From Pseudoalteromonas shioyasakiensis (GTDB lineage Bacteria > Pseudomonadota > Gammaproteobacteria > Enterobacterales > Alteromonadaceae): a stretch of 64,000 nucleotides of DNA. The notes beneath the pieces are model-generated. The model was not told the DNA's origin, did not search any database, and saw only the letters and a list, made by a program, of their open reading frames with translations. Location: assembly GCA_013391845.1 (NCBI GenBank), contig CP058414.1, positions 1,536,501 to 1,600,500 of the forward strand, read 5' to 3'. This document shows positions 32,266 through 50,419 of the stretch, one piece after another; position 1 is the stretch's first letter; the number at the start of each line of letters is the position of its first letter. Position numbers and translations under genes: made by a program.

Positions 32266-33357
32266 GTGAGCGATTTATTATCTCAAGACGAAATTGATGC
32301 GCTCTTACATGGCGTCGACGAAGTCGAAGAGGAAGATATTCACGAAGGTGATGACTTAGACAGTAATACCTTACAGTATGACTTCTCATCACAAGATCGT
32401 ATTGTCCGTGGTCGTATGCCGACCCTGGAGATCGTGAATGAACGTTTTGCCCGTCATATGCGAATTAGCTTATTTAACATGATGCGCCGCACCGCAGAGG
32501 TGTCGATTAACGGCGTGCAAATGATTAAATTTGGCGAATATATTCACACCTTATTCGTGCCAACCAGTTTGAACATGGTACGTTTTCGTCCTTTGAAGGG
32601 CACAGGCCTAATTACCATGGAAGCCCGATTAGTATTCATTTTAGTGGATAACTTTTTTGGTGGAGATGGTCGCTATCATGCAAAAATTGAAGGCCGAGAA
32701 TTTACCCCTACAGAGCGTCGTATCGTTCAAATGCTGCTTAAAATTATCTTTGAAGATTATAAAGAAGCATGGGCACCGGTAATGGATGTATCTTTTGAGT
32801 ACCTTGACTCAGAAGTTAACCCTGCGATGGCTAACATCGTAAGTCCAACTGAAGTCGTTGTTATTAGCTCTTTCCATATTGAGCTAGATGGTGGTGGTGG
32901 TGATTTCCATATTGCACTGCCGTACTCTATGCTTGAGCCTATTCGTGAATTACTCGATGCCGGTGTGCAATCAGACACCGAAGACACTGACCTACGTTGG
33001 AGTAAAGCATTGCGTGATGAGATCATGGATGTTGAAGTGGATTTGTCGACTCAATTACTTGAGGTCGATTTAACACTACAACAAATCATGGAGCTTAAAG
33101 CTGGCGATATTATCCCTGTGGAAATGCCAGAACATATCACCGTCTTTGTAGAAGAATTGCCGACCTTTAGAGCAAAAATGGGTCGTTCTCGTGACAATGT
33201 TGCACTACAAATTAGCGAAAAAATTAAACGCCCTGAATCAGTTAAGTCAGAACTACATGTGTTCACAAAAGGTGGCAAAAAACTGGATTCAGATGCAGAA
33301 TTAGCAGAACTAGAAGAAGATCTACATCTATCAGAAGGTGTGGATTTAGACTGGTAG
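32266..33357 (+). CDS. fliM: Flagellar motor switch protein FliM
   Basis: FliM forms the middle C-ring layer and binds phosphorylated CheY to reverse rotation. The N-terminal LLSQDEIDALLHG (residues 4-16) is the CheY-binding peptide. The middle domain includes SSQDRIVRGRMPTLEIVNERFARHMR and GTGLITMEARLVF, and the C-terminal SpoA domain starts near residue 250. The GTG start has an AAGGGG ribosome site. The 363 residues are typical. See the CheA entry for related peptide copies in this window. Confidence 0.96.
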   Translation: MSDLLSQDEIDALLHGVDEVEEEDIHEGDDLDSNTLQYDFSSQDRIVRGRMPTLEIVNERFARHMRISLFNMMRRTAEVSINGVQMIKFGEYIHTLFVPTSLNMVRFRPLKGTGLITMEARLVFILVDNFFGGDGRYHAKIEGREFTPTERRIVQMLLKIIFEDYKEAWAPVMDVSFEYLDSEVNPAMANIVSPTEVVVISSFHIELDGGGGDFHIALPYSMLEPIRELLDAGVQSDTEDTDLRWSKALRDEIMDVEVDLSTQLLEVDLTLQQIMELKAGDIIPVEMPEHITVFVEELPTFRAKMGRSRDNVALQISEKIKRPESVKSELHVFTKGGKKLDSDAELAELEEDLHLSEGVDLDW

Positions 33358-42451: not shown

Positions 42452-42835
42452 TTGGATAAAAACATGAAAATTCTTGTTGTTGATGATTTTTCTACAATGA
42501 GACGTATCATTAAAAATCTATTAAGGGATTTAGGTTTTACCAATGTGCAGGAAGCTGACGACGGTTCAACAGCATTGCCAATGCTACAAAATCAAGAATT
42601 TGATTTTGTTGTAACAGATTGGAACATGCCTGGTATGCAAGGTATTGATTTGTTACGCGCAATTCGTGCTGATGATAGCCTTAAGCATATTCCTGTGTTA
42701 ATGGTGACAGCTGAAGCGAAAAAAGAACAAATTGTTGCTGCTGCTCAAGCAGGTGTTAATGGCTATATCGTTAAACCATTCACTGCTGCGACACTTAAAA
42801 CCAAATTGGAAAAAGTGTTTGAACGTTTAGGTTAA
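42452..42835 (+). CDS. cheY: Chemotaxis response regulator CheY
   Basis: CheY, phosphorylated by CheA, binds FliM to change rotation direction. The single receiver domain shows the acidic pair DD at residues 11-12, the phosphorylation aspartate at about residue 56 (VTDWNMPG), T86 (VTAEAK) and K108 (IVKPF). A TTG start at 42452 with a GGAGG site gives MDKNMKIL, as in Vibrio CheY3; an ATG at 42464 would shorten it by four residues. The 127 residues are normal. Confidence 0.95.
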
Positions 42836-42852: not shown

Positions 42853-43620
42853 ATGTCAGCACTTGCTGCGCCTCAAATAAGTTTAGAGCAAGCTCGTCAA
42901 CTTGTTGAGTATCTTGAAAATGGTGAACAAGAAAAAGCTGATAAGCTAATTCTTGATGCTGCGTCAAAAGAGCAATCAGAGTTGTTTGCTGAAGTCGGTA
43001 AATTGACGCGTCAACTTCATGAAGCGTTAAAAAACTTTGACCTAGATACTCGTCTCGCTGATTTAACTACCGACGCTATCCCAGATGCTAAGCAGCGCTT
43101 AAATTATGTTATGGAAATGACAGAAAGTGCCGCCAATAAAACTATGGATGCAGTTGAAGCAAGTTTACCGATAGCGCAACAACTTGCTGATGAAATTGCT
43201 GCAATTAAGCCTACTTGGGATCGTTTAATGAACCGAGAAATTGAACTCGGTGAATTTAAATCGTTATGTCATAGCCTAGATAAGTTCATGAATAACTCGC
43301 ACACAAAAACCGATGAGCTTCAAGGCTTGATGACCAATGTGCTGATGGCGCAGGATTATCAAGATTTAACTGGACAAGTTATTCGTCGTGTCATTGAACT
43401 AGTGCGAGAAGTAGAAGACAGTTTAATTAATCTCTTAACTGTGTTTGGCAGTCAAGAAGATGGTCATCAACAACAAGAAAAACAGGCCATAGAAAAAGCA
43501 CCTGCACCAAGTGACACACTAGCAGGTCCTGAAGGGCCGATTATTGATAAAGAGTCTCGCGATGATGTTGTTTCAGGACAAGATGAAGTCGATGATCTAT
43601 TATCAAGTCTGGGCTTCTAA
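42853..43620 (+). CDS. cheZ: CheY-P phosphatase CheZ
   Basis: CheZ dephosphorylates CheY-P. The long helical hairpin contains MAQDYQDLTGQVIRRVIELV, in which the D-x-x-x-Q pair is catalytic. The C-terminus SGQDEVDDLLSSLGF (residues 241-255) is the classic CheY-tethering peptide. It is 255 residues, slightly longer than the enteric protein. It has a GGGGAGAGG ribosome site and precedes cheA by 15 bases. Confidence 0.95.
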   Translation: MSALAAPQISLEQARQLVEYLENGEQEKADKLILDAASKEQSELFAEVGKLTRQLHEALKNFDLDTRLADLTTDAIPDAKQRLNYVMEMTESAANKTMDAVEASLPIAQQLADEIAAIKPTWDRLMNREIELGEFKSLCHSLDKFMNNSHTKTDELQGLMTNVLMAQDYQDLTGQVIRRVIELVREVEDSLINLLTVFGSQEDGHQQQEKQAIEKAPAPSDTLAGPEGPIIDKESRDDVVSGQDEVDDLLSSLGF

Positions 43621-43635: not shown

Positions 43636-45927
43636 ATGAGCTTTGAAGTCGATGAAGATATATTACAGGATTTCCTTGTTGAAGCAGGAGAAATCTTAGA
43701 GCTATTGTCGGAGCAATTAGTTGAGCTTGAAAACAACCCAGAAGACAAAGATCTATTAAACGCCATTTTTAGGGGCTTCCACACTGTTAAAGGTGGTGCA
43801 GGTTTCTTAAGTATGACTGAACTTGTTGATGCTTGTCATGGCGCAGAGAATGTTTTCGATTTATTACGCCAAGGTGTACGCACTGTTACGCCTGAGTTAA
43901 TGGACGTAATATTACAAGCCCTTGATACTATTAATGAAATGTTCGCCACGATTCAAAATCGCGAACAACCAGAGCCTGCAGATCCAGCCCTATTAGAAGT
44001 CCTTCATAAATTAAGTCAGCCGCCTACTGCAGAAGAGCTTGCAGGTGAAGATTTATCTGTAGCAGAGGACGTTGCAGTTGCACCTGAAGAACCAGCAGTT
44101 GAAGAGGTTGTTGTTGATACGCCTGAAGTCACAGCAGATACAGCAACAGACAACATCGATGAAGATGACCCATTTGCGTTCGATATGTTATTTGATGGCG
44201 GCGGTCTTGCTGATAGCAGCGCTGAGTCTCAAAATATTGACGAAATCACTGAAGATGAATTCGAAAGCTTGTTAGATGAGCTGCATGGAAAAGGCCAAGG
44301 ACCAGCAGCATCTGCTCCTGAGTCAAATAGCAGTGACAGTGATGATATTACCGATGATGAATTTGATAGTTTATTAGATGAATTGCACGGTGTTGGTAAT
44401 TTTGGGGAAGTAAAACAAGATAATACTGCCAAGCCTGAAGCTACAAGTTCTATTGAGCCAGCCTCTGCCACCCCAACTGCGGAGGCAGCAAGCAGCGATT
44501 CAGACGATGAAATTAGTGATGATGAGTTTGAGGCACTTCTTGACGAGTTACATGGCAAAGGCACAGCTCCTCAATCATTGGAAAGTTCAACCGCGGAAAA
44601 AGCACCTGAGCCACCAAAAGCTGAACCAGCAAAACCTGCTCAGCCTGCAGCCTCTAAACCGGCACCTGCACCGAAACCTGCAGCTGCAGCTAGTAAACCT
44701 GCTCCAGCTCCTGCAAAAGCGCCAGCAGCTTCAGCGGCACCGAAAAAGGCTCCGCCTCCACAGGCAGAAACAACGGTTCGTGTTGATACCAAACGTCTTG
44801 ACGAAATCATGAACATGGTTGGTGAGCTTGTATTGGTTCGTAACCGCTTGGTAAGTCTTGCGAATAACAGCAACAGTGAGTCAATGGGTAAAGCCATCTC
44901 GAACCTAGACGTGGTAACCGCAGACTTACAAGGTGCGGTAATGAAAACCCGGATGCAGCCAATTAAGAAAGTATTTGGTCGTTTCCCACGCGTAGTTCGT
45001 GACTTAGCTCGTAGCTTGAAAAAAGACATTAATCTGCAGCTAGTAGGTGAAGAAACCGATTTAGATAAAAACCTTGTTGAAGCACTTGCTGATCCATTGG
45101 TGCACTTAGTGCGTAACTCTGTAGACCATGGTATTGAAATGCCAGATGTGCGTGAAGCTGCAGGTAAACCGCGTACAGGTACAGTCACGCTCTCAGCATC
45201 ACAAGAAGGTGATCATATTCTGCTTACCATTCGTGATGATGGTGCTGGTATGGATGCTGATAAGCTGAAAAAAATCGCAATCAGCAAGGGTGTAATTGAT
45301 CATGATCAAGCAAGCCGTTTGTCGGATACAGAAGCATACAACCTAATATTTGCTCCTGGTTTCTCAACGAAAGAAGAGATCTCTGATATTTCAGGGCGCG
45401 GTGTCGGCATGGATGTGGTTAAAACTAAAATAACCCAGTTAAATGGTTCGGTTAACATCCAGTCGGAATTGGGCGTAGGTACTGCACTAGAAATTAAGGT
45501 GCCATTAACGCTTGCTATCTTACCAACTCTAATGGTTGTTGTAGGTGAGCAAACCTTTGCTCTACCGCTTGCTGGCGTAAGCGAAATTTTCCACCTTGAT
45601 TTAACTAAAACTAACGTAGTTGATGGCCAACTGACAATAATAGTTCGTCAAAAAGCGATTCCGCTTTTCTATTTACAACATTGGTTAGTAAAAGGTGCCA
45701 ACCGCCAAGAGCGTAAAGCAGAAGGTCACGTGGTGATTGTACAAATAGGTACTAAACAAGTGGGCTTTGTTGTTGACTCATTAATTGGTCAAGAAGAGGT
45801 GGTTATCAAACCTTTAGATGCCTTATTACAAGGCACGCCAGGAATGGCAGGTGCGACAATTACTTCTGATGGTGGGATTGCATTGATCCTTGATGTACCT
45901 AGTATGCTTAAACATTACGTTGGCTAA
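43636..45927 (+). CDS. cheA: Chemotaxis histidine kinase CheA with repeated linker motif
   Basis: CheA phosphorylates CheY and CheB in response to receptors. P1 carries the phospho-His at residue 49 (FRGFHTVKGGAGFL). No globular P2 domain is seen; instead residues about 120-378 are an acidic, then Pro/Ala-rich linker holding three copies of an E/D-rich helix at 202-218, 236-252 and 291-307 (for example DDITDDEFDSLLDELHG). P3 starts near 380 (VDTKRLDEIMNMVGELVL), P4 has VHLVRNSVDHGIE and DDGAGM, and P5 is CheW-like. The linker may include the localisation region that ParP and ParC bind in Vibrio. It is 763 residues. Confidence 0.95.
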   Translation: MSFEVDEDILQDFLVEAGEILELLSEQLVELENNPEDKDLLNAIFRGFHTVKGGAGFLSMTELVDACHGAENVFDLLRQGVRTVTPELMDVILQALDTINEMFATIQNREQPEPADPALLEVLHKLSQPPTAEELAGEDLSVAEDVAVAPEEPAVEEVVVDTPEVTADTATDNIDEDDPFAFDMLFDGGGLADSSAESQNIDEITEDEFESLLDELHGKGQGPAASAPESNSSDSDDITDDEFDSLLDELHGVGNFGEVKQDNTAKPEATSSIEPASATPTAEAASSDSDDEISDDEFEALLDELHGKGTAPQSLESSTAEKAPEPPKAEPAKPAQPAASKPAPAPKPAAAASKPAPAPAKAPAASAAPKKAPPPQAETTVRVDTKRLDEIMNMVGELVLVRNRLVSLANNSNSESMGKAISNLDVVTADLQGAVMKTRMQPIKKVFGRFPRVVRDLARSLKKDINLQLVGEETDLDKNLVEALADPLVHLVRNSVDHGIEMPDVREAAGKPRTGTVTLSASQEGDHILLTIRDDGAGMDADKLKKIAISKGVIDHDQASRLSDTEAYNLIFAPGFSTKEEISDISGRGVGMDVVKTKITQLNGSVNIQSELGVGTALEIKVPLTLAILPTLMVVVGEQTFALPLAGVSEIFHLDLTKTNVVDGQLTIIVRQKAIPLFYLQHWLVKGANRQERKAEGHVVIVQIGTKQVGFVVDSLIGQEEVVIKPLDALLQGTPGMAGATITSDGGIALILDVPSMLKHYVG

Positions 45928-48887: not shown

Positions 48888-49658
48888 GTGAAAGTTTGGA
48901 CCGTAGCGAATCAAAAAGGTGGGGTAGGGAAAACAACAACAGCTGTTAGCCTTGCTGGCATTCTTGCTTTACAAGGAAAACGAGTGTTACTTATTGACAC
49001 TGATCCGCACGCATCATTAACTTATTATTTTGGCATTGATTCTGAAGAGCTTGAAGTCAGCGTGTATGATATCTTTGCACGCGGCAATAGTATGGCCAGT
49101 GAAGAAGTTTTACAGGCTCTGTGCCCATCTACGCTAGAGAATCTTGACATTTTACCGGCGACAATGGCAATTGCTACGCTAGATAGAAGCATGGGCAATA
49201 AAAATGGTATGGGTCTGATACTTAAAAAAGCACTAGCTAAAATTAGTGACCATTACGATTATGCAATTATTGATTGCCCACCTGTTTTAGGTGTTTTAAT
49301 GGTGAATGCACTTGCCGCGAGCGAACGGATATTAGTACCAGTACAAACAGAGTTTTTGGCCTTGAAAGGTCTTGACCGTATGATGCGTACGATGGAGCTA
49401 ATGCAAACATCGCAAGCAAAACAGTACCAATATACGATTATTCCAACAATGTACGACAAACGTACTAAAGCATCACTTGAAGCTTATAAGACTCTGCAGG
49501 ATAATTACAAAGATAAAGTATGGTCAGGCGTGGTGCCCGTCGATACAAAATTTCGAGATGCTAGTTTAGCACAACAGGTGCCGATTCAATTTTGCCCACG
49601 CTCACGTGGCGTGTTTGCATATCGCGCACTGCTTGATTACTTAATTGCACAGGGTTAA
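48888..49658 (+). CDS. parC: ParA-type ATPase ParC for polar chemotaxis arrays
   Basis: A ParA/MinD-family ATPase (256 residues) with the deviant Walker A ANQKGGVGKTTTAVSLAG, LLIDTDPHASLTYY and IIDCPPVLGVLM. In Vibrio a gene in this position (ParC) places chemotaxis arrays at the cell pole together with ParP. A GTG start is used, 11 bases after motD. It is followed by parP two bases after its stop. A plasmid-partition role is unlikely here given the context. Confidence 0.9.
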   Translation: MKVWTVANQKGGVGKTTTAVSLAGILALQGKRVLLIDTDPHASLTYYFGIDSEELEVSVYDIFARGNSMASEEVLQALCPSTLENLDILPATMAIATLDRSMGNKNGMGLILKKALAKISDHYDYAIIDCPPVLGVLMVNALAASERILVPVQTEFLALKGLDRMMRTMELMQTSQAKQYQYTIIPTMYDKRTKASLEAYKTLQDNYKDKVWSGVVPVDTKFRDASLAQQVPIQFCPRSRGVFAYRALLDYLIAQG

Positions 49659-49660
49659 AG

Positions 49661-50419
49661 ATGAGTAAGCATTTATTTGCCAATGAAAAAGTGATGACCC
49701 AATATTTGGGCGCTTTGTTGTGTGAAGATGAGCCTACTGAAGAAAATCTAGAGCCGGTTGCAAAGTTACTGGAGCAGGTTAAAGAGCCTGAAACTAAGAC
49801 AGAAGAAAAGCTGACAGAGGTTCAGCCTACCCCAAAATCTGCTTTACCGACCCCTGAACCGACTAAAGAGCTTGAGAAAACCGAGAACCAAGCTAATATC
49901 AAAGATATAGTTGCAGAACCTAAAGCTGGACTGGTTGCAAAAACTTCGTCTGATCGTCAAGAAGACTATTTTGATGGTGAGTTTCAGGCGTTGTTCTTTG
50001 AAGTGGCGGGTTTAACTCTTGCTGTACCTTTAAAAGCATTAGGGGGAATTCATCAGCTGGGAGAGGTTAATCAATTATTTGGCAAGCCTAAATGGTTTAA
50101 AGGTGTAATGCTTAACCGAGAAGAAAAGCTTAATGTTGTTGACACAGCACGCTGGGTAATGCCAGAAAAATATGATGAAAAATTAGAACAATCACTAAAT
50201 TATCAGTATTTAATCACCTTAGGCGACAGTCAATGGGGATTATTGGCTGAAAAGCTCGTAAATAATATTACGCTTCGTAAAGAAGATGTAAAATGGCGAG
50301 CGAAATCAGGTAAGCGGCCTTGGCTTGCAGGTGTCATCAAAGAGAAAATGTGCGCCTTGATTGACGTTGAAAATTTAAATCAATTGCTAGAGCAGGGCTT
50401 AGACAGCCGTGAGCAGTAA
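49661..50419 (+). CDS. parP: CheW-domain protein ParP
   Basis: A 252-residue protein with an acidic, Pro/Glu-rich N-terminal half and a CheW-like domain from about residue 105 (FQALFFEVAGLTLAVPLKALGGI). This architecture and position between parC and cheW is that of ParP, which ties CheA to the polar anchor ParC in Vibrio. The WRAKSGKRPWLAGVIKEKMCALIDVENL ending is family-like. It is probably translated together with parC. Confidence 0.88.
   Translation: MSKHLFANEKVMTQYLGALLCEDEPTEENLEPVAKLLEQVKEPETKTEEKLTEVQPTPKSALPTPEPTKELEKTENQANIKDIVAEPKAGLVAKTSSDRQEDYFDGEFQALFFEVAGLTLAVPLKALGGIHQLGEVNQLFGKPKWFKGVMLNREEKLNVVDTARWVMPEKYDEKLEQSLNYQYLITLGDSQWGLLAEKLVNNITLRKEDVKWRAKSGKRPWLAGVIKEKMCALIDVENLNQLLEQGLDSREQ

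Follow-up and report, generated by a model that had tools for sequence, protein, structure and literature searches.

The linker between the P1 and P3 domains of the CheA kinase encoded in a 64,000-nucleotide stretch of the Pseudoalteromonas shioyasakiensis chromosome (contig CP058414.1, positions 1,536,501 to 1,600,500; hereafter the window) carries a tandem array of three short peptide motifs, resembling those with which FliM and CheZ bind CheY. The array suggests, without proving, a mode of CheY recruitment: that the motifs dock CheY is, judged from sequence, about an even call. On the best reading, what is new here would be CheY docking by a short peptide of a known kind, moved to the kinase.

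A tandem motif in the P1-P3 linker of CheA

The gene, its linker, and the motif copies are located as follows (positions are those of the window).

43636..45927, plus strand: cheA, 763 residues (open reading frame; domains by Pfam)
43990..44769, plus strand: P1-P3 linker of CheA, residues 119-378 (sequence)
44239..44289, plus strand: motif copy 1, DEITEDEFESLLDELHG, CheA residues 202-218 (open reading frame and sequence)
44341..44391, plus strand: motif copy 2, DDITDDEFDSLLDELHG, CheA residues 236-252 (open reading frame and sequence)
44506..44556, plus strand: motif copy 3, DEISDDEFEALLDELHG, CheA residues 291-307 (sequence and alignment)
44167..44196, plus strand: possible degenerate upstream copy, DPFAFDMLFD, CheA residues 178-187 (analogy with orthologues)

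Pfam resolves CheA into Hpt (residues 8-99), H-kinase_dim (379-438), HATPase_c (486-625), and CheW (632-760) domains, corresponding to P1, P3, P4, and P5. The linker comprises 260 residues of low complexity, rich in Ala, Glu, Pro, and Asp; within it, the three repeats that the initial annotation had described at residues 202-218, 236-252, and 291-307 are present exactly there, with 13-14 of 17 residues identical in each pair of copies and third codon positions agreeing at just 5 of 17. As the third codon positions have diverged under a near-identical peptide, the motif appears to be maintained by selection and not to stem from a recent duplication. The segment DPFAFDMLFD may be a further, degenerate copy, by analogy with the many orthologues that show a degenerate first copy.

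The core of the motif, [DEQ]E[FIV][DE]xLL (a slightly relaxed form of the core given in the initial annotation), occurs at exactly five sites in the 64 non-nested open reading frames of the window (20,526 residues): three in CheA, one at residue 8 of FliM, and one at residue 244 of CheZ. The three sites in the CheA linker compare with 0.0008 in shuffled sequences. The repeat region has no match among PDB sequences at E <= 10, and a plasmid search gave no match.

Conservation among related CheAs

Two sets of CheAs were compared. For the first, 140 genomes of the class were searched, at least 105 of which gave CheA-like matches, and 60 loci were taken: 49 CheA places with the best scores, plus 11 lower-scoring ones of other classes. 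Together with the window, the 49 places give 50 CheAs of the window type, of which three were dropped, L040 for a break in the CheA frame (the fragment has the motif), and L063 and L081 for linkers cut at contig ends; the remaining 47 come from 46 families. All 47 complete linkers contain the motif, in one to four copies, a count that is uninformative on CheAs at large, since these CheAs were picked by their likeness to that of the window. There are 123 copies in total (126 regular-expression matches minus three spurious ones, L050:159, L066:123, and L053:213; the copies in L053 are degenerate), following each other at a median spacing of 39 residues (range 23-57). Their consensus unit, [DE]-I-[TS]-[DE]-[DE]-E-F-[DE]-A-L-L-D-x-L-H-G-x-G, is longer than the core common to FliM and CheZ; the core itself is found at 91 sites, in 44 of the 47 linkers, against a mean of 0.02 in shuffled ones. 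In the alignment of the 47 CheAs, F298 and L302 of copy 3 are the only invariant columns of the linker, and when the copies were masked, a search for four-residue patterns brought up nothing beyond the P1 helix end and the Ala/Pro/Lys composition.

The second set, of named organisms, was drawn from at least 592 relatives, the best 80 being kept, and has at least one genome in common with the first (L144/L073). Here too the motif is present, in one to four copies, in all 47 gammaproteobacterial CheAs with a linker (Gammaproteobacteria in the NCBI sense, with betaproteobacteria apart), carriers including Vibrio, Photobacterium, Shewanella, Aeromonas, Alteromonas, Pseudomonas, Marinobacter, Dyella, and Acidithiobacillus. 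It is missing from the remaining 33 CheAs, namely the truncated L155 and 32 from outside this group, some of them betaproteobacterial.

Other linkers in this set contain short peptides of their own. Six betaproteobacterial CheAs without a P2 match (L182, L186, L192, L199, L201, and L203) have a single linker peptide, [PV]DWxx[LM][HYF], which the regular expression matches in five of the six, the sixth reading VDWDALYSALTG; L190 is truncated. This peptide is possibly the counterpart of the gammaproteobacterial motif. Linkers of Campylobacterota CheAs (L168, L172, L175, and L179) carry VEAEI(E/Q)RL(L/I), twice in both Sulfuricurvum and once in both Helicobacter loci.

The motif occurs in CheAs with no detected P2 domain

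The initial annotation had seen no globular P2, and none is detected here by either of two approaches. Pfam, whose P2/CheY-binding families are PF07194 and PF09078, gives no P2 match in the window CheA, in the 47 CheAs of its type (0/47), or in 12 CheAs of other classes (0/12), six of which are P2-like; as it misses P2 in these as well, its silence alone is weak evidence. It was therefore supplemented with a home-made profile built from the six P2-like CheAs, which recovers each of them at 100-136 bits when that one is left out. The profile has no match in the 47 motif-bearing linkers (E >= 2.7), and among the motif-bearing CheAs of the named set no match falls below E = 2. Conversely, the linkers of the six CheAs with a P2-like domain contain no copy of the motif; motif and P2-like domain never occur together in the CheAs checked. 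Among the remaining CheAs of other classes, L084, L085, L086, L091, and L092 are unclassed, and L087 has one motif copy and no P2-like pattern; loose regular-expression matches in L084, L088, and L089 fall in or beside P1 and are not counted. The genome also provides a natural internal control in a second, paralogous CheA (G000:C1:228870-230858; L005:2799-5258), one of the six, which has a P2-like segment, no motif, and an adjoining CheY-like gene.

Two of the unassigned or divergent cases deserve description. L091 looks P2-like by eye. The CheA of L087 (L087:6858-9364) is divergent; its motif reads DEITDEEFERYLDELYG, and it directly follows a small CheZ-like protein whose end, NQDEVDALLSELGL, is intermediate between the FliM and CheZ peptides.

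The motif array lies at the same site as P2, between P1 and P3, and would do the same job, recruitment of CheY; it differs in that P2 is one globular domain, whereas CheAs of the window type have one to four short peptides in a low-complexity linker. AlphaFold2 (AF2) models the P1-P3 region of one orthologue (L060) at low confidence, with short isolated helices at the motif copies and no compact domain. More generally, a survey of CheA domains describes more than half of CheAs as having no CheY-binding domain, with an unstructured stretch in their AlphaFold models, and its main text never uses the word "motif" (PMC10782961). On the other side, a P2 domain is mentioned for CheAs of the window type in Vibrio (PMC7534058) and Pseudomonas putida (PMC11978298), in both cases in passages that give no sequence evidence for it.

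Isolated helices could also mean that the repeats are amphipathic or spacer helices of the SHOCT type, tuning linker length or oligomerizing, without a specific partner. Pfam does report SHOCT at E <= 0.01 in 22 of 47 CheAs, the best orthologue reaching 1e-6; in the window, however, the match (copy 3, residues 292-305, 44509-44550) scores 15.0 bits against a gathering cut-off of 27 (PF09851), and it probably arises through the helix start IT[DE]EEF held in common with the SHOCT consensus. Given also that the invariant Phe and Leu in fixed register exceed the needs of a spacer, and that copy number (1-4) and spacing (23-57 residues) vary, we regard this explanation as highly improbable.

Likeness to the CheY-binding peptides of FliM and CheZ

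The peptides to which the motif is compared, both of a type known to bind CheY, and the proposed partner are encoded in the same window.

32281..32313, plus strand: FliM N-terminal peptide SQDEIDALLHG (sequence; profile rank 5)
43576..43617, plus strand: CheZ C-terminal peptide GQDEVDDLLSSLGF (sequence; profile rank 7)
42452..42835, plus strand: cheY, proposed partner of the motif (Pfam Response_reg)

The window, part of a 3.63-Mb chromosome (G000:C1:1536501-1600500), contains flagellar genes and a chemosensory operon with cheY, cheZ, cheA, cheB, two stator-like genes, parC, parP, and cheW; the gene names were assigned partly by eye and partly by Pfam. Nearly all of the named CheAs that match the window CheA best are from Pseudoalteromonas. 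By its gene content and the literature, the CheA is assigned to class F6, as are those of the flagellar operons of Vibrio, Shewanella, and Pseudomonas; cluster II of Vibrio is placed in this class in the text of PMC7534058.

Aligned on their anchors, the three peptides fall into one register: [TS]-x-x-E-F-[DE]-A-L-L in CheA, S-Q-D-E-I-D-A-L-L in FliM, and Q-D-E-V-D-D-L-L in CheZ. A comparison of the conserved profile of the CheA motif with 4,191 conserved windows, taken from 14 families, puts the FliM peptide at rank 5, ParP at rank 6, and the C-terminal peptide of CheZ at rank 7; with the matching register, this bears out the earlier proposal that the core is common to the FliM N-terminus and the CheZ C-terminus. 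Among 1,029 open reading frames of the loci, the core is present in 39 of 44 CheAs, 13 of 34 CheZs, and both FliMs (2/2). Of the 949 remaining frames just 2 have it, and inspection shows one to be a fragment of CheA and the other a CheZ-like protein. In the whole home genome, 11 sites fit a looser DNA pattern, seven of them also DE[FIV][DE]xLL; five of the seven belong to chemotaxis or motor proteins (three in CheA, one each in FliM and CheZ), the other two being, by eye, MurB-like and DEAD-box helicase-like.

The likeness, as far as sequence can tell, is real but short. With FliM, the motif has in common [ST]-x-[DE]-E-hydrophobic-[DE]-x-L-L; FliM, however, has Ile at the anchor, goes on as LLHG, and presents a single copy at the motor, whereas CheA has Phe, an Ile before the [ST], and the continuation LLDxLHGxG. 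With CheZ, the segment DE-V-D-D-LL-x-x-L aligns with DE-F-E-A-LL-D-x-L of CheA; the CheZ peptide is single, C-terminal, and ends in GF.

Two loci may be mentioned beside these comparisons. About 22 kb from cheA in L224 (Vibrio sp. HA2012) lies a long acidic open reading frame, HubP-like by eye, which contains the FliM-like LDEIDSFLSEF and FDEDFMAALDEH. In the single-contig genome G031 (L067), FliM has no match; its CheA keeps three motifs, in a locus with the order cheY-cheZ-cheA-parC-parP-cheW beside flagellar rod/hook-like genes. Because cheB appears split and the neighborhood looks rearranged, G031 was left out as evidence.

Relationship to ParC and ParP

Three to five kilobases downstream of cheA, the window encodes a second candidate partner system.

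48888..49658, plus strand: parC-like ATPase gene (family A1, 414 bits)
49661..50419, plus strand: parP-like gene with a C-terminal CheW-like domain (Pfam CheW; family A2, 250 bits)

This neighborhood raises the alternative, already considered in the initial annotation, that the repeats are the ParP/ParC localization region LID, which would keep the array at the pole marked by ParC through binding of the CheW-like AIF domain of ParP, with no role for CheY. Motif and LID share their region and their type of CheA: the LID is described as lying between P2 and P3 and as occurring only alongside ParC and ParP (PMC7534058; also PMC5706961, as far as the relevant passages of both go). Moreover, the masked linkers show no other recurrent motif that could be the LID. 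The motif is nevertheless kept in ten genomes without a ParC orthologue, in contrast to the described limitation of the LID to genomes with ParC and ParP.

In five of these genomes (G001, G008, G020, G023, and G137, 91-100% complete; some of the ParC-less genomes are drafts, such as G001 at 91%), the best matches to ParC reach 185-207 bits, which is what ParA-type proteins score, compared to 360-414 bits for ParC orthologues against family A1 in five control genomes; a genome-wide search for ParP in the same five yields only scores of 36-42 bits, the level of CheW (the CheW of the window itself scores 37 bits with the ParP family). In the other five, Dyella acidisoli, D. monticola, Allochromatium palmeri, Acidithiobacillus sp. 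YTS05, and Hydrocarboniphaga sp., the best ParC matches reach 179-203 bits, compared to 371-386 bits in the Vibrio and Stutzerimonas controls of the named set; here ParP was sought within the cheA locus. G010 is not counted among the ParC-less genomes, having a ParC/ParP-like pair elsewhere, beside another CheA. Copy numbers in the ParC-less genomes (1-4) are like those elsewhere.

The motif is thus independent of ParC, and binding of ParP/ParC cannot be its only role; as an account of the motif that dispenses with CheY, the LID explanation is decidedly unlikely. A part of it may still hold: no other conserved element was found in the linker, and in ParP-bearing species the motif may well be the element that ParP binds, so that ParP may share the motifs and the published LID may coincide with them.

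Proposed docking of CheY

From the observed array and its conservation, the undetectable P2, the independence of ParC, and the likeness to FliM and CheZ, we infer CheY as the partner, and with it the face bound and the effect on phosphotransfer. Each motif copy would dock CheY on the α4-β5-α5 face used by the FliM and CheZ peptides; short helix-forming motifs in tandem, about 40 residues apart in a flexible linker, would act as tethered weak CheY sites, raising the local concentration of CheY beside the phospho-histidine domain P1 and handing CheY over to it. Several weak sites would thereby substitute for the single P2 domain.

Literature on this type of CheY lends indirect support. The PDB chain closest in sequence to the CheY of the window is 3to5, titled Vibrio cholerae CheY3; V. 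cholerae CheY3, which belongs to the F6 cluster, binds FliM, with docking modeled at α4-β5-α5, and FliM and CheZ are said to use the same face of CheY (passages of PMC3774744). CheY3 is 82% identical to the CheY of L060. Where an F6-type CheY was taken over by a P2-bearing F7 CheA, the changed residues comprise three facing P2 and five facing P1, and one change lies on the FliM-binding helix; the analysis used a P1-P2 structure, and its passages on this switch carry no remark on F6 CheA lacking P2 (PMC7184735). The motif is also kept in loci without a match to CheZ (L051, L054, and L060).

Several observations weigh against docking of CheY. In the profile comparison, other segments of CheZ take ranks 1 and 3, FlhF rank 2, and FlhA rank 4, all ahead of the known ligands. 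A single-sequence position-specific scoring matrix (PSSM) of the CheA motif, run on 985 non-CheA proteins and supplemented by the profile-profile test, places FliM only 40th and scores many CheZs best outside their C-terminus; this matrix is dominated by Phe. Of 53 sites that fit the looser DNA pattern in six other genomes, no more than 16-17 fall in CheA, CheZ, or FliM: 10 of 33, by coordinates, in four of the six; among the 10 in Vibrio, one that is probably FliM by position and 3 that are CheA by translation; and 3 of 10 in Dyella, which match its own CheA and CheZ peptides. The Phe at the anchor and the LHGxG tail of the CheA unit are absent from FliM and CheZ. Some CheAs without a P2 match, the Nitrospirota L187 and L194 among them, show no such motif.

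Structure prediction gave no sign of docking. In L060 (G086), a locus with no CheZ or CheB match, cheA follows cheY in frame after about 180 bases, which allowed AF2 to model the two proteins as a single read-through chain. The two 10-residue blocks of each motif copy then have predicted local distance difference test (pLDDT) values of 55/72, 58/69, 77/55, and 46/47, and the fourth copy forms no helix, compared to 58/77, 75/75, 63/83, and 62/66, all helical, for CheA alone. The presence of CheY thus does not raise the confidence of the motifs and, if anything, lowers it, as judged by pLDDT, a measure that by itself can neither establish docking nor rule it out.

A last point against docking is biochemical: peptides of the FliM/CheZ type prefer phosphorylated CheY, and a dock on the kinase should hold the unphosphorylated form. 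Because of this preference, the array could instead hold the product near the kinase; it may also be, as speculation, that the Phe anchor and the LHG tail relax the preference.

These features leave room for a different ligand, either another common partner or CheA itself (the CheB receiver, CheW/P5, P4, P1, or another array protein), through which the motifs would regulate kinase activity or array assembly. This would account for a unit longer than the FliM/CheZ core, for a Phe and an LHGxG tail foreign to both, and for the absence of any sign of CheY docking in the AF2 models. It sits less well with the fact that both known CheY ligands are among the conserved peptides most like the motif in these gene neighborhoods, and, for CheB, with the lack of a CheB match in the motif-bearing loci L050, L052, and L060 (loci of 18-19 kb); we consider it rather unlikely.

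Implications

A search of full-text literature found no description of the motif, of which a partial prior description under the name of LID is possible. The question that it addresses is the route by which CheAs without P2, the majority in the survey cited above (more than half; PMC10782961), recruit CheY. A wider answer, on balance unlikely in its full form, is that they do so through lineage-specific linker motifs: DEFEALLDxLHG (one to four) in gammaproteobacteria, [PV]DWxx[LM][HYF]xx[VL] (one) in betaproteobacteria, and VEAEI[EQ]RL[LI] (one to two) in Campylobacterota, and that in polar flagellates ParP would grip the same motifs, so that docking and tethering compete.

For the CheAs of Vibrio, Shewanella, Pseudomonas, Aeromonas, and their relatives, the motif is the only conserved element found in this region. 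If ParP binding holds, instead of CheY docking or alongside it, the LID would gain a precise sequence. If docking of CheY holds, the kinase, the phosphatase, and the motor would all read one short code on CheY, through sites whose binding strength and copy number would be easily measured and varied.

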